A DNA stretch of 20,732 bases from a virus (IMGVR_UViG_3300010388_000097:1-20732), one strand, 5' to 3'. Shown: positions 1-13,274, counted from the stretch's first letter. Notes: generated by a model not told the origin, from the letters alone. Made by a program: numbers and translations.

Positions 1-855
1 AATGCGACCAAGCAGTAGTTCTGCCGAACGGCGAACGTTTCCTGATACGACACAGACACCAATCATGTTGCCGATGTCCGCGATGTCTACACGCGTCAGG
101 AGTTCTCCTGCACGACCAAGGAACATCTTTCTAATGTGGTTATGCAATTTAAGAAGTGGCTCGTGACCAGCAGCGACTCCACCAAAGGTCTTGATGGGAG
201 TCCCAAATGGCCTGATCTGGTCGTAGTTAAAGTCCCAGTTTGGCTGGTCTGGCTTTAGGAACGAGTTGATAAGAGCAGCGGTTGATTCAGCCCAGCCCTC
301 TCGGGTGTCTGGGATGTCGTAGTTCTGAGGACCTACTGGAGAGTAGATCTCAAAGCCCTTGTCTGCACCCTTGTCATCAAAGCCAACACCAACGCCTAGC
401 ATTGAGGCTTCCATTAGGAACGCAAAAGGCTTAGCAGGATTGTTCTTAGTCATCTCGTTAGTAGACACAAAGGCACAGTTCTGCAAAGCGGCAGAGTTTC
501 CCTGCACGTTTACGATGTCTGTTCCCATAACCCAAAGCCCACGACCAGGGGGAGTCCAGCGTAGGTTGAAGATACCGTCGAACGCTTCCTGAGCTTCTGA
601 CTGGGCCTTCACGCCGTTCCAAGGTAGTCGCTGTTGCTTTGTGTGGTCTTTTAGAATAGAGAAATAGCCATTAACTACACGTTCACAGACATCTACCCAA
701 GTTTCCTTAGTGCCATCTTCCTTTAGGCGGCTGTAGGTTCTTAGGAATGTGATTTCGCCGACTGAGTTGCCTGCTGCATCTGAATACCCCCAAGGAACTA
801 CTTTAGATCTGTAACTCTCTACAAAATCGGCGGACAGTTTAAATGAAACGGCCAT
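1..855 (-). CDS. nrdJ: Adenosylcobalamin-dependent (class II) ribonucleoside-triphosphate reductase, N-terminal part
   Basis: The first 285 residues of a ribonucleotide reductase are visible; the 3' end lies beyond base 1. Class II enzymes make deoxyribonucleotides from ribonucleotides using coenzyme B12, without oxygen or a second subunit. Features typical of the monomeric RTPR type are an N-terminal segment with VPWG (20-23) and FLRTYSR (37-43), PPGRGLW (102-108), the conserved Cys at 127 in QNCAF (one of the redox-active cysteines of the Lactobacillus leichmannii enzyme by position), the glycine-rich GVGVGFD (154-160), and SGNVRRSAE (271-279). The thiyl-radical cysteine and C-terminal cysteines would be in the missing part. 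The ATG at 855 follows AAGGAAG at good spacing. A 144-bp gap separates it from the next gene upstream, so it may have its own promoter. The gene probably supplies dNTPs for phage replication together with the dNMP kinase at 15712-16254. Confidence 0.88.
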   Translation of the reverse strand, partial: MAVSFKLSADFVESYRSKVVPWGYSDAAGNSVGEITFLRTYSRLKEDGTKETWVDVCERVVNGYFSILKDHTKQQRLPWNGVKAQSEAQEAFDGIFNLRWTPPGRGLWVMGTDIVNVQGNSAALQNCAFVSTNEMTKNNPAKPFAFLMEASMLGVGVGFDDKGADKGFEIYSPVGPQNYDIPDTREGWAESTAALINSFLKPDQPNWDFNYDQIRPFGTPIKTFGGVAAGHEPLLKLHNHIRKMFLGRAGELLTRVDIADIGNMIGVCVVSGNVRRSAELLLGRI

Positions 856-898
856 AGGCACTTCCTTTTACTTGATTTTTCGATAGGGGTGGACAACT

Positions 899-999: not shown

Positions 1000-2460
1000 C
1001 TAAGAGTTTTCTGGATCGATCCGCTGAATTAGATCGTTTGTCTGCTGTTGGTCCATTCCACCGTTAGGTAATTCGGTCACAACTTTAGCCTTTTCTCCGA
1101 ATAAACTAGACAATACTCCAGCACTTCCAGAGCGTTCTACGGTCACTCGCATCATCTCTCTAGAGTCATCCAATTCCTTAATTGTCTTAAGAATCTTAAA
1201 GAATCTATCTAGTTCTTGGCTTACATTCGGGTCAGGATATCCACCGTTCAAATCCTCGGTAAACTTGGCAAATGCCACCCGCTGCCCTTGCATTTCAACG
1301 AGTGCGTCGATTAGCGACTTAAGTTGAGCCTTGGTTTTTACCTCTACAGGCAGGTTAAAAGCACACGCACTATCAGGCTTTGCCGCAGGGCAGTTAGGGG
1401 CAACAATACAGGTGTTGCAAATGCGTAGGCTGGTGCTGTTTGACTTAATAGTCGGTACTTCTTTGAGGACCTGCACTCCCTCGTCGTCGGTTTCCAGAAC
1501 CCTCGACATCTCGACTCCCAAAGACGGAAGTGTACGGAATTCGTCGGGATTTCGTGGCGTAAGTTTCCGCACATCACTACCACTCTTAGCAACATCAACA
1601 GGGGGTGTTTCCACTTTATCGGTGGGTACTGTTCCATCACTCATAGTTACTAAGTCCAATCCTATTTTGTCGTTCCAAAGTTCTAGTTGCTGGTAAGACC
1701 AGACGGCTAGTTTCGATACTTCTACAGCGTCATCTGCCAGAATCTTATCAAAATCTAGTTTTGCCTGCTCGTAGACAGCCTTGTATCGTGGTCTTGCTTG
1801 ATCTTTCATTCGCTTCGGGTAGCGAACAAGACGGTTGTTATGCCATACGATAGTTTCCCCGCGCATCATTGGTGATAGCCAAGCGAGGGTAGCCATAGTC
1901 GTAAATGGGGTATTACGCATAGAATCGGGTTTAGCGACTCCTAGTGCGTGGAATTTAGTCCCGTGCTGCTTAGCGAACCGGTGGGCAAAAGGCTCAAGGC
2001 TCAGGTCTTTCTCCAGGGCAGCCCCGGTAATGCAGACGTTCAGATAGCGAGTTGCTAGACTCTCCAAACTACCAGAATCATAAATAACTGCAAACTTGTC
2101 CTCGGGTACTTCCGCCCATGCGGTCTCCCGCTGCCGCTGCTTTGTGGCCGGGTCTAGGTCAGGGTGGTCTACCTCGGTAAACATGGTGATTCTATTTAGG
2201 TTATTAGCAATAAAGTCCTCGTAGTCAGCGAGGAACTCATCCAACTCGCCTGGCTCGAAGCTCTTGCTCGACGGGATCCCAGGGTAGACATAGATGTCCA
2301 CGCCCTCTGGAAAATAGTTTTCTAGTAAATAAGTCTTGGTCTTAGGCAAACCACGTCGGATTAGGCCCCACACGCTTACGCCCATGGCCTCCGTGTTCAT
2401 TTGACCTAGGATTACTCTGTTGCTAGGTACTTCTGCACCTAGGTATACAAACTGGGTCAT
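1000..2460 (-). CDS. TIM-barrel protein resembling tRNA-guanine transglycosylase/DpdA, with a Cys motif and helical C-terminal domain
   Basis: A 486-residue protein, tentatively of the queuine tRNA-ribosyltransferase-like superfamily. The match is in architecture: a helix-rich stretch with EFLADYEDFI (75-84), a FTEVDHPDLDPAT segment (94-106) where such proteins have an Asp-containing strand, a VCITGAAL strand (142-149), and KFHALGVAKPDSMRNTPF (169-186) resembling the HGLG...L...PF element of DpdA-like proteins. Where relatives usually carry a DSGA-type strand this one reads YVYPGIPSS (57-65), so catalysis by the usual aspartate is doubtful. C348, C351, C357 and C366 form a possible metal site. 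Residues 370-450 are helical and resemble a DNA-binding module. The ATG at 2460 overlaps the upstream stop as ATGA, which ties it to the HAD-like gene. The fold call is moderate and the function is unproven; no preQ0 synthesis genes are in the window. Confidence 0.5.
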   Translation of the reverse strand: MTQFVYLGAEVPSNRVILGQMNTEAMGVSVWGLIRRGLPKTKTYLLENYFPEGVDIYVYPGIPSSKSFEPGELDEFLADYEDFIANNLNRITMFTEVDHPDLDPATKQRQRETAWAEVPEDKFAVIYDSGSLESLATRYLNVCITGAALEKDLSLEPFAHRFAKQHGTKFHALGVAKPDSMRNTPFTTMATLAWLSPMMRGETIVWHNNRLVRYPKRMKDQARPRYKAVYEQAKLDFDKILADDAVEVSKLAVWSYQQLELWNDKIGLDLVTMSDGTVPTDKVETPPVDVAKSGSDVRKLTPRNPDEFRTLPSLGVEMSRVLETDDEGVQVLKEVPTIKSNSTSLRICNTCIVAPNCPAAKPDSACAFNLPVEVKTKAQLKSLIDALVEMQGQRVAFAKFTEDLNGGYPDPNVSQELDRFFKILKTIKELDDSREMMRVTVERSGSAGVLSSLFGEKAKVVTELPNGGMDQQQTNDLIQRIDPENS

Positions 2461-2912
2461 AGTCGGTTGTCCTCGTTAGCCATATCGATCTGGCGATCTA
2501 GTTCCCCTACCAGTTCTCCCCAACTCTTACGCCCACTCCTGCCGTCAGGTCGGAATTTAGCATTAAAGTAAACTGGGTGCAGGAATAATAGGGTTTTAAC
2601 CCCGTTTTCCAACAGTTGTTTAGATAAGTCCACGTCCGCTGTGATCGCAAGGTAGACAGGGCCCGAGGATTGCTGGTGCTGGACCTTTAGATAGTCCTTA
2701 TCTGGGTAGTTTCCAACGGTTTTATCCGAAATAAACCCATCAAGGTCATTTAATTTGTGCTCTTTGCACCAACGCAAGGCTTCTTCTTGGTCATCTACTG
2801 CCAACATGACTACGCCATTGACATTTAGGGACTTGTATAGTGCGATTCCTTCATAAATCGGCACGCGCTGCGGTGAACGGAGTACGCCATCCATAAAAAT
2901 TACTATTGCCAC
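2457..2912 (-). CDS. HAD-like protein with degenerate motif I
   Basis: This 151-aa protein begins with a hydrophobic strand running into FMDGVL (6-11), the place of HAD motif I (DxDGV/T). The nucleophilic first aspartate is replaced by Phe, so phosphatase activity is not expected by the standard mechanism. A hydrophobic strand in LNVNGVVMLAV (29-39), a second in YLAITADVDL (87-96), and TLLFLHPVYF (107-116) fit an alpha/beta Rossmannoid domain. The start is GTG at 2912, forced because an in-frame stop lies two codons upstream, and only a weak Shine-Dalgarno is visible. The TIM-barrel gene overlaps its stop by 4 bases and the nucleotidyltransferase-like gene lies 25 bases upstream. A non-catalytic nucleotide-binding or structural partner role in that trio is an inference. 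Confidence 0.55.
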   Translation of the reverse strand: MAIVIFMDGVLRSPQRVPIYEGIALYKSLNVNGVVMLAVDDQEEALRWCKEHKLNDLDGFISDKTVGNYPDKDYLKVQHQQSSGPVYLAITADVDLSKQLLENGVKTLLFLHPVYFNAKFRPDGRSGRKSWGELVGELDRQIDMANEDNRL

Positions 2913-2937
2913 GAGTTATTTGTCCGTTTCTTGTATT

Positions 2938-3828
2938 TTAGAGGTACTGTGATGCCGCACGTCGAACAAGCGTTCGAGCGTCTGGCAAGTCTACTCCATA
3001 GGTTTTCTTATTAAATTCTGCATCTTCAGCGTCCATAGCGTCTTTGATCGAGCGAAGGGCCTGAACTGCGCCTGATTTCTTACCTGATTGCCAACGGTAA
3101 TTAGCATAATCCAAATAACCTTCGCCAGTTTCGCTAAATGCGGCGGATCTACCTGCGTGGATGTCGTCGTACAGGCCGACTGCCTGTGACATTGCCATAC
3201 GCATAGCGGAACGAGCGGTGGACTTTACTGCTTCATTAGTTGCTTCATCGTATTTAGACTTAGCCGACATGTATCGGGTCAGGATTTCGATGGTCTGAGT
3301 GCGGTCTTGGTCAGCTTTTTTGTCCCAAACTGGGTTAGCCTCTGCACCGATAGGTTGCGGAGTGACTGTCCACTCATCATTGATAAGCGAATATGCTGCG
3401 TAAGGCTTGATGTCCACGATGTTGGACTTTACGTTCACATAAAAGGTCAGTTCAAAGGAGTCCATGAAACGGGCTGTAAGAGGCTGTAGGCGGCCTCTGA
3501 AGCCCTCATTAAAGGTCTGGGCTATCTCTTTGTCACTAAAGCGTGCAAACTGCGTGTTGGACTGTCTGAACAGCGGAAAATTGATGCCTACGAGGCAGTC
3601 TAGGTCGCCTGGATCGCGTTGTGCTGCCCACTGGTACGATACGCCAGATCCAGCCAGCCATGCGTGCATCCAGTTGCTAGACCCTGTGTAATTATCGTTT
3701 AAGTGGTTAAACAGTAATTGCAGGATTGCCGAGCGTACGGTTGGGTTTAGCTTCCCGTTCTTGAACAGGCGTGGGTCAAGGCCAGCCGAAGGTAGGCTGA
3801 AGTATGAAGTTTCTGCTGATTCTAGCAT
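2938..3828 (-). CDS. Nucleotidyltransferase-fold protein (Pol beta superfamily)
   Basis: A 296-aa protein with the signature of minimal nucleotidyltransferases: a helix ending in AGSGVSYQW (59-67), which supplies the G-S motif, then DPGDLDCLVGI (72-82) with D75 and D77 as the metal-binding pair, and a later strand NIVDIKPY (136-143) with D139 as probable third acid. The helical C-terminal half (175-296) could bind the acceptor. Enzymes of this superfamily transfer a nucleotide to RNA, protein or small molecules; the substrate here cannot be told. A GAGGAC Shine-Dalgarno lies before the ATG at 3828, which directly abuts the stop of the preceding gene. Its place immediately upstream of the HAD-like and TIM-barrel genes suggests one pathway. 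All three catalytic acids appear intact, in contrast to the HAD-like neighbour. Confidence 0.6.
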   Translation of the reverse strand: MLESAETSYFSLPSAGLDPRLFKNGKLNPTVRSAILQLLFNHLNDNYTGSSNWMHAWLAGSGVSYQWAAQRDPGDLDCLVGINFPLFRQSNTQFARFSDKEIAQTFNEGFRGRLQPLTARFMDSFELTFYVNVKSNIVDIKPYAAYSLINDEWTVTPQPIGAEANPVWDKKADQDRTQTIEILTRYMSAKSKYDEATNEAVKSTARSAMRMAMSQAVGLYDDIHAGRSAAFSETGEGYLDYANYRWQSGKKSGAVQALRSIKDAMDAEDAEFNKKTYGVDLPDARTLVRRAASQYL

Positions 3829-4039: not shown

Positions 4040-4309
4040 CTATTCGGCGGATTTTCTCCTACTTACAGCATCCCTCATGGAGGCACTAATCCGCTGGCTA
4101 TCCGCCTGTGAATTTATCTCCATTACTCGTGCCATAAGTTCGCTGATGTCCTGGTGTTCGATCACTCGTGCGATCTCTGTGCAACCAATACGGATTTCAT
4201 CTTTGAGGGCTGGTCGTTCTGCAACCATCTCCACATCTAGGCGGGGAGTAGCAGACCAGTTGCCGTCTAAGGACCTGCTAACGATGAAGGCTACTTCAAC
4301 CTTATTCAT
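4040..4309 (-). CDS. Small alpha/beta protein of unknown function
   Basis: An 89-aa protein without a recognisable domain. The first third looks like beta strands (KVEVAFIVS, then WSATPRLDVEMVAE); the rest is a long charged helix, with DEIRIGCTEIARVIEH leading to an Arg/Ser-rich end. The ATG at 4309 overlaps the stop of the zinc protein upstream by 8 bases (ATGAATAA), suggesting coupled translation. Confidence 0.65.
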   Translation of the reverse strand: MNKVEVAFIVSRSLDGNWSATPRLDVEMVAERPALKDEIRIGCTEIARVIEHQDISELMARVMEINSQADSQRISASMRDAVSRRKSAE

Positions 4310-4814
4310 CGTACATTCCAGACTGCTCGTTAAACTTTTTCATATTAAAGGATTTAACTGGGCAGAAATCACATAGGTAAACCTTCGGGCCCTTAGCCTC
4401 GATCGGTAGACCGGCATCTCGACGTTCACGCTCGGTCTTAGGCGACAGCCACTTCTTCTCTGACTTGTAGTCGGAGCACTGACCCTGTGGTCGGTTGTGT
4501 ATGCTGTAGCACGCCATAGCGTCCTCGGAAAACTGGCTCTTGGTTTCGTAGAACTTGGTTCCAAACGAATCTAGGCCAGACCCGATCTTGCCGTGAATCT
4601 GCTCGATTACGGCTTCTTTCATCTTTGGAGCCATCCAGATACCCTTTGGCACGTTCCATAGAACGCCGTAGTGGCTCTCGCTGTGTCTCTCCGCTGCGAT
4701 GGTTAGCAGGGTGTCGCCTGGGTCTTCATCCGCACCTGGAAGCTCCTCAATGGTGCTACAGGTACGACAGACTAGTAGGCGGAAGTGTGGTTCTTGTTCG
4801 ACGTCTAATGACAT
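4302..4814 (-). CDS. Zinc-binding protein with two Cys/His clusters, unknown function
   Basis: A 170-aa protein. The N-terminal CRTC (16-19) with H44 and H48 could form one zinc site. C102, H106, C113 and the CDFC pair (148-151) could form another. Between them lies a helix-rich segment (62-76). It resembles conserved actinophage proteins of unknown role, but I cannot name a family with certainty. The ATG at 4814 follows AGGAG at good spacing and is the first gene after the promoter at 4842-4870. It therefore heads the transcript that contains the nucleotidyltransferase, HAD-like and TIM-barrel genes, and could be their regulator or a nucleic-acid-binding partner. Confidence 0.7.
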   Translation of the reverse strand: MSLDVEQEPHFRLLVCRTCSTIEELPGADEDPGDTLLTIAAERHSESHYGVLWNVPKGIWMAPKMKEAVIEQIHGKIGSGLDSFGTKFYETKSQFSEDAMACYSIHNRPQGQCSDYKSEKKWLSPKTERERRDAGLPIEAKGPKVYLCDFCPVKSFNMKKFNEQSGMYDE

Positions 4815-8690: not shown

Positions 8691-8969
8691 TTAGCTTACT
8701 GAACTTACTTTAAATACAATCGCGCTAATTGTGTCTCCGTTGCTCTCTACTGAGGCAAATCCTGGGACACAAATTAGGTCGATACCCCTAGGGGCAGCGT
8801 ATCCTCGGGCAATAGCAATGGCCTTAACAGCCTGGTTTACAGCCCCAGCACCTACGGCACGGAGCTTACAGCCGCCGTTCTCGTAGACGGCGTGGGCAAT
8901 CGCGGATGCGACTAATTGGGGGTTACTGCCTGCGCCAACGCGCAATACATCATCTTTTGATTCTGACAT
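8691..8969 (-). CDS. SpoVS family protein (stage V sporulation protein S homologue)
   Basis: A 92-aa protein that matches SpoVS along its length: VLRVGAGSNPQLVASAIAHA (9-28), GAGAVNQAVKAIAIARGY (40-57), and DLICVPGF (64-71), as compared with Bacillus subtilis GAGALNQAVKAVAIARG and DLICIPAF. SpoVS is a small Alba-like-fold protein that affects septation and spore coat assembly in Bacillus and is thought to bind nucleic acid. A homologue in a phage could modulate host development or cell division, or simply bind DNA or RNA. AGAGG lies upstream of the ATG at 8969. The gene stands alone between the micro-genes and the disordered protein. Confidence 0.85.
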   Translation of the reverse strand: MSESKDDVLRVGAGSNPQLVASAIAHAVYENGGCKLRAVGAGAVNQAVKAIAIARGYAAPRGIDLICVPGFASVESNGDTISAIVFKVSSVS

Positions 8970-12906: not shown

Positions 12907-12935
12907 AACATAGCACACATGCTAACTATTGTCTA
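12907..12935 (-). promoter_or_regulatory. Promoter candidate, AAGTAGAC class, for the Cas4-like nuclease transcript
   Basis: On the minus strand, -35 TAGACA (12930-12935) and -10 TATGTT (12907-12912) are separated by 17 bases, with an extended -10 TGC. The -35 overlaps the TAG stop of whiB, and the putative start site lies about 15-20 bases before the nuclease ATG. It matches the promoter at 4842-4870 in spacing and in the AAGTAGAC and TGTG elements. Confidence 0.55.
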
Positions 12936-13274
12936 CTTTGTTTTTTGTTTCTTGACGTATTCTTCAAAAGTCATGCCGAGCTTCTCTGCTTTACGCTTCA
13001 TGGCGTTACGCTCGCGATGGCTAAGGCCTCCCCAGATACCGTGCATCTGGTTTCTGCGCTCGGCAGTTAGTAGGCACTCTTCTCTTACAGGGCAAGGTGG
13101 CTGGCCATCACGACCAAAGCAGATAGACTTCGCCTTATCGGCGATCGGCTTGTATAGGTTCTTGTCCCTAGGAGGGAACCACATGTCGGGATCATACTTA
13201 GGAACGCCATTAATCTTGGTTGCGCACTTGGCGTCAAGCTCCCAAGGTTCTGGTGCTTCGAAATAAGGTAGCAA
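12933..13274 (-). CDS. whiB: WhiB-family Fe-S transcription factor
   Basis: A 113-aa WhiB-like protein: WELDAKC with C17, then C52, C61 and C67 (CPVREEC, 61-67), the GIWGG turn (79-83) with the Arg/Lys-rich tail RNAMKRKAEK. WhiB proteins bind a [4Fe-4S] cluster through four Cys and act with sigma factor in Actinobacteria; phage copies can repress host whiB genes and block superinfection. The gap between the second and third Cys is eight residues (CFGRDGQPPC) rather than the usual two. The start is TTG at 13274, the only start codon after the upstream in-frame stop, 5 bases after GGAG. Its presence is the strongest host clue in the window. Confidence 0.9.
   Translation of the reverse strand: MLPYFEAPEPWELDAKCATKINGVPKYDPDMWFPPRDKNLYKPIADKAKSICFGRDGQPPCPVREECLLTAERRNQMHGIWGGLSHRERNAMKRKAEKLGMTFEEYVKKQKTK

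Follow-up and report, generated by a model that had tools for sequence, protein, structure and literature searches.

A widespread three-gene module of actinophages that links a probable nucleotidyltransferase to a TGT-like protein apparently lacking its catalytic nucleophile

Actinophages carry a real and widespread, though unnamed, module of three adjacent genes encoding a nucleotidyltransferase-like protein (NTase), a small Rossmann-like protein, and a protein of the TGT/DpdA superfamily (here, the TGT-like protein). As judged from aligned sequences, the TGT-like proteins are without the catalytic nucleophile throughout the family, and the NTase is the only member of the trio with a recognizable intact active-site motif. 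Because the TGT-like protein has lost its catalytic residue, the function of the trio is probably other than the guanine modification of its relatives. The preferred reading, tentative and rated somewhat below an even chance, is that the NTase is the enzyme of the module and that the TGT-like protein, once a base-exchange enzyme, has become a recognition subunit. The observations that support this reading are the conserved linkage of the three genes, the superfamily membership of the TGT-like protein, the loss of its nucleophile, the intact NTase motif, and the absence of QueC and QueD. Literature searches of partial coverage turned up no account of the trio.

Gene order and distribution of the trio

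The window, the whole stretch of DNA analyzed here, is a 20,732-base virus record (IMGVR_UViG_3300010388_000097:1-20732), and positions are counted along it. As an earlier note on this DNA had reported, three adjacent genes lie on the minus strand. In transcription order they encode the Pol-beta-type nucleotidyltransferase-like protein of 296 aa (2938 to 3828), the small Rossmann-like protein of 151 aa, which has a GTG start (2457 to 2912), and the TGT-like protein of 486 aa (1000 to 2460), and the last two genes have the 4-base overlap that had been described (ATGA, 2457 to 2460). Shine-Dalgarno patterns and promoter and terminator scans were uninformative. Pfam and NCBIfam searches with the trio proteins returned sub-threshold matches only, PDB sequence-profile searches gave no meaningful match for any of the three, and PADLOC had no match to them. 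The closest named relatives are phages of Streptomyces, and the window also contains a gene for a WhiB-family transcription factor (12933 to 13274, minus strand; Pfam E value, 1.2e-13), which together suggest that the host of the virus is actinobacterial.

The order NTase, small Rossmann-like protein, and TGT-like protein on one strand was found in all 160 fetched loci that contain the three genes; because many of these loci come from contigs that were fetched more than once in overlapping pieces, the 102 distinct NTase proteins that they encode are the better count. In 137 of the 160 loci, the second and third genes overlap. Of the loci with fewer trio genes, some are controls already known or opposite ends of a single record (L004, L005, L021, and L022), and the others for the most part appear to be truncated at contig ends. 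The complete trio is present in 13 metagenomic phage contigs recovered with the 486-aa protein and in five Streptomyces phages (BRock, GiJojo, LuckySocke, Alone3, and pSt2308), whose proteins are 31 to 38% identical to those of the window for the two larger proteins and 25 to 30% identical for the small one. Six prophage-like loci in Streptomyces and Nonomuraea genomes have the same order and strand, and the neighbors of the trio in these genomes read as phage-like. In Streptomyces diastatochromogenes, a gene for a large serine recombinase, assigned by inspection, adjoins the trio (L178, 9456 to 11798), which fits a temperate phage.

The Streptomyces phages usually have an additional gene between those for the small protein and the TGT-like protein, with the three still together. 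In these phages and in the Nonomuraea locus, the inserted gene encodes about 250 to 560 aa (8784 to 9950 in L001 and 7352 to 9037 in L177), and where it was scanned, no family match was convincing. In about 20 other loci a gene of about 238 aa is added, starting roughly 970 bases past the NTase start.

The shared order and strand of the trio are far beyond chance, and the three genes are a fixed module. Much of the block around the trio is syntenic in the main-clade phages, so linkage there is partly a matter of shared descent. A shared function is argued more strongly by the persistence of linkage, despite inserted genes, in Streptomyces phages that have diverged and in prophage-like loci. 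In this survey of gene neighborhoods the three genes behave as one unit, in line with the earlier note; of the outcomes that the note had named as refuting it, a fold other than a TIM barrel and a lack of co-occurrence in other phages were both looked for, and neither arose.

Upstream of the NTase gene, a Cys-rich protein of 170 aa with no family match is encoded at 4302 to 4814 (minus strand). Its gene is present in 100 of the 102 loci, homologs occur in the Streptomyces phages and in a prophage-like locus (38% identity), and the module may include this protein as a fourth member. A partial gene that reads by inspection as encoding a ribonucleotide reductase (1 to 861, minus strand) lies downstream of the trio in 87 of the 102 loci.

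Fold and catalytic residues of the TGT-like protein

The 486-aa protein, which had been likened to tRNA-guanine transglycosylase (TGT) and DpdA, belongs to the DpdA/TGT superfamily by fold and profile. It matches phrog_887 with an E value of 7.9e-43, the DpdA proteins of phages 9g and Sonali also belong to phrog_887, and the TGT-like protein of BRock is 27% identical to Sonali DpdA. AlphaFold2 predicts an eight-stranded TIM barrel at residues 1 to 265, with block-mean pLDDT values mostly above 90, in agreement with the barrel that the earlier note had read from the sequence. The PDB fold matches listed for this model are all of the TIM-barrel type without pointing to TGT in particular; none has an E value below 0.001, and Cap10, the TGT-family protein of type IV CBASS discussed below, was not identified among them. 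The barrel (about residues 1 to 265) is followed by a linker, a four-Cys site, and a C-terminal domain; the extra helical domain that had been proposed for this last part is indeed predicted to be helical, but with low confidence, and it is poorly resolved in the model.

The nucleophile was compared in an alignment of 109 trio proteins with 16 phage DpdA controls. Rhinoforte (a Rosebushvirus relative) was used in place of Rosebush and Orion. At the position of the nucleophile, which is the Asp within YSCDSSSW of 9g (S-x-D-S motif), Asp is present in 16 of 16 DpdA proteins and in none of the 109 trio proteins, which have Ser (84 proteins), Ala (10), Thr (10), His (4), or Gly (1). The window protein has A190 at this position, encoded at 1891 to 1893 on the minus strand (coordinates from the gene frame). 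The Asp of the DSG motif is likewise found in 16/16 controls but in only 17/109 trio proteins and is replaced by Y59 in the window protein, whereas position 98 is Asp in 16/16 controls and 56/109 trio proteins. These aligned Asp positions are presumably the catalytic acids, an assignment taken from established knowledge of TGTs together with the alignment.

In a phylogenetic tree, the trio TGT-like proteins form one clade apart from DpdA (support, 100/99), separated by an inner branch of 1.7 changes per column; long branches of some DpdA controls leave the placement of the root uncertain. The occurrence of DpdA as a singleton was considered as a general cause of Asp loss and was rejected, since the singleton DpdA of phage 7-11 retains Asp.

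Other parts of the barrel have been retained. The residue corresponding to H171 is His in 104 of the 109 trio proteins and in all 16 DpdA proteins, strong conservation within the trio family is seen at H171, W194, W206, R213, Y214, K219, Q221, and R223, and conservation exceeds 95% at many positions of the barrel. Conservation of this strength could mean other chemistry instead of mere binding, which counts against the TGT-like protein being a recognition subunit. It is what might be expected of an unorthodox transglycosylase or glycosidase, in which the barrel would break the base-sugar bond by means of H171, D179, or a water molecule, leaving the product to be processed by the NTase and the small protein, and it is unusual for an idle pseudoenzyme. 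Such an enzyme is nevertheless unlikely, as the nucleophile Asp is gone from 109 of 109 proteins, the DSG Asp and D98 are gone from most or many of them, and the genes for deazaguanine synthesis are missing from the trio phages.

QueC and QueD were found in 0 of 21 trio-bearing phage records, comprising the five Streptomyces phages, which are complete, and 16 contigs of 85 to 102 kb, which may not be, and in 3 of 3 control phages. In keeping with what the earlier note had seen, no deazaguanine synthesis genes lie near the trio, either in the window, itself a 20.7-kb record, or in its larger relatives. A canonical TGT was found in none of the six genomes with a prophage-like trio (control, 14 of 14 genomes), one of which has a full-length QueC. 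With the nucleophile gone, the DSG Asp mostly gone, QueC and QueD missing, and no canonical TGT, the trio protein does not appear from its sequence to function as DpdA in the known way. The DpdA-like insertion of 7-deazaguanine that had been put forward is therefore not borne out, and the alternative branch of the earlier note, in which the module does "something else entirely," is the one that the evidence favors. BRock gp36 is named a queuine tRNA-ribosyltransferase and GiJojo gp181 a dpdA-like transglycosylase, and both are without the nucleophile Asp. Public names of this kind imply 7-deazaguanine in phage DNA; they probably mislead and overstate the activity, because the catalytic residue that defines it is missing throughout.

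The four-Cys site that had been noted in the TGT-like protein (C348, C351, C357, and C366; 1363 to 1419, minus strand, coordinates from the gene frame) is complete in 103 of 103 aligned trio proteins and is probably a metal site. In Bacteroides phage BS162P1, a separate gene, gp88, matches the trio C-terminal domain (phrog_887 positions 365 to 486; E value, 8e-20). It is located at 4725 to 5480 of L022, directly after the gene for gp87, a DpdA with an intact Asp; a QueC-like gene precedes this pair, and a QueE-like gene, identified by inspection, follows shortly after. The stand-alone C4/helical domain of BS162P1 is an unnamed companion of DpdA. It is possible that DpdA and this companion domain became fused in the actinophage line and that the chemistry of the barrel was then lost as QueC vanished and the NTase module was gained. 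A SpoVS-like protein of 92 aa encoded in the window (8691 to 8969, minus strand) is 37% identical to a protein near the QueC and DpdA genes of BS162P1, and BRock gp51, similar in position to the window gene, is annotated as a sporulation protein.

The probable nucleotidyltransferase and the small Rossmann-like protein

Sequence motifs and the predicted structure indicate that the NTase is probably a Pol-beta-type nucleotidyltransferase. G60, S61, D75, and D77 are invariant in all 106 proteins, with D75 and D77 on a predicted strand (residues 74 to 82). The next predicted strand (125 to 131) carries E126, which is Glu in 103 proteins and Asp in 3, so that the NTase motif is present, with Gly-Ser, a pair of Asp residues sharing a strand, and a third acid on a strand farther along. 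The earlier note had named D75, D77, and D139 as the three acids. The first two hold, but the position of D139, in a short predicted helix, is Asp in only 39 of the 106 proteins (Lys in 15, Glu in 14, and Ser in 14), and the third acid is more likely to be E126. The AlphaFold2 model of the NTase (pLDDT, 90.1) has a C-terminal helical bundle. A Foldseek search of the PDB with this model gave no match below an E value of 0.001, and the only NTase among the listed matches was AadA (6fzb; E value, 0.1; TM-score, 0.26). In the BFVD set of viral models, one protein named nucleotidyl transferase matched with an E value of 1.7e-8. Nine further uncultured phage proteins in BFVD share the NTase fold at 13 to 17% identity (E values of 5.6e-8 to 4.5e-11), including one named amidoligase and one named LETM1-like.

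An NTase in this setting could also serve RNA repair or the maintenance of tRNA 3' ends, adding nucleotides to damaged RNA while the TGT-like protein binds tRNA. TGT-fold proteins bind tRNA, phages use NTases in RNA-end repair (PMC7824862), and BRock encodes 29 tRNAs (PMC7453282). However, no RNA ligase or polynucleotide kinase is annotated beside the trio in the phage records, the window contains no tRNA gene, and the NTase has no Pfam match to tRNA NTases, which make such a role quite improbable.

The small protein reads as Rossmann-like and contains an FMDGVL motif that is HAD-like; annotators of Streptomyces phages have named its homologs hydrolases or phosphatases, and the earlier note had taken it for a HAD-fold protein. 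The HAD assignment is weak. None of 66 members of the family matched a Pfam HAD family, and an hhalign comparison with NagD-type HADs gave a P value of 0.002 but was off-register (P value against NYN, 0.6). Residue 6, which corresponds to the nucleophile of the HAD DxDG motif, is Phe, Ser, Val, or another residue and is Asp in none of 98 proteins. If the small protein is HAD-like, its nucleophile would thus be missing from the entire aligned set. A PIN/NYN fold was weighed as an alternative because 22 of the 66 members have weak matches to DUF188 and 7 to PIN_9; profile comparison favored HAD over NYN, though weakly and off-register.

A possible mechanism and comparison with known systems

If the TGT-like protein is a recognition subunit, a guanine-like base or a nucleic acid would sit in its barrel with the glycosidic bond left uncut, and the four-Cys/helical C-terminal domain may aid the binding of nucleic acid or of a partner. 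The small Rossmann-like protein would act as a non-hydrolytic adaptor. The three proteins would form a complex in which the NTase transfers a nucleotide, the putative target being a nucleic acid. In a bolder form, the trio might represent a new nucleotidyl-transfer system, with the nucleophile-less TGT fold reading a base or nucleic acid for the NTase and a novel conjugate being made on DNA, tRNA, or protein, as an independent phage counterpart of the NTase/remodeled-TGT pair of type IV CBASS; this form is possible, if on the unlikely side.

Type IV CBASS also bears on a role in counter-defense or nucleotide signaling. Cap10 of this system is reported to be a TGT-family protein remodeled to bind a CD-NTase (PMC11996544), so that an NTase coupled with a remodeled TGT has a precedent in immunity, and the Streptomyces phages have ArdA-like antirestriction genes downstream of the trio. 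The phage NTase could make or modify a small nucleotide, or the TGT-like protein could mimic or sequester part of a host immunity based on deazaguanine. Such a role is highly doubtful given that PADLOC had no match, that no QueC-like Cap9 is present in the trio phages, and that the NTase has no conserved Gly at residue 2, which is Asn in 35, Leu in 30, Asp in 23, and Gly in 2 of 106 proteins with start codons as called. Least probable is a conventional DpdA that puts host-made 7-deazaguanine into phage DNA, which would suit the phrog_887 match, the names given to the BRock and GiJojo proteins in public records, and the traces of modification in Salmonella phage 7-11, which has DpdA only (PMC6884629), but is opposed by a nucleophile Asp that every DpdA control including that of phage 7-11 retains and every trio protein has lost, by the six genomes with prophage-like copies, none of which has a canonical TGT and only one of which has a full-length QueC, and by Mycobacterium phage Orion, which has DpdA only, a host without preQ0 synthesis, and no modified bases (PMC6884629).

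Among known systems, phage DpdA (phrog_887; Enterobacteria phage 9g, CAjan, and Sonali) is like the trio protein in being a TIM-barrel member of the TGT superfamily with the conserved His (H171). The trio protein differs in the absent nucleophile Asp, the mostly lost DSG Asp, and the fused C4/helical domain, and the trio differs in having no QueC or QueD and in being linked to an NTase. The DpdA/gp88 pair of BS162P1 shares the C-terminal domain and a SpoVS-like neighbor with the trio but consists of two separate proteins with an intact Asp and with QueC- and QueE-like genes alongside, and no NTase was recognized there. AadA (6fzb) has a comparable two-acid NTase motif and C-terminal helical part, although the likeness (E value of 0.1 and TM-score of 0.26) is too weak for membership.

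The trio may resemble Cap10 and its CD-NTase in principle, by analogy with the published account of type IV CBASS (PMC11996544), in that an NTase gene is paired with one for a TGT-family protein turned from base exchange to another use. Unlike that system, the trio is without Cap9/QueC in the 21 trio phage records and without a conserved N-terminal Gly, and no effector was recognized. The function of the module is directly testable, as it occurs widely in actinophages, some of them culturable phages of Streptomyces. Should the TGT fold prove to be a recruited partner of the NTase, the module would be a second case of the principle seen in type IV CBASS, this time on the side of the phage.
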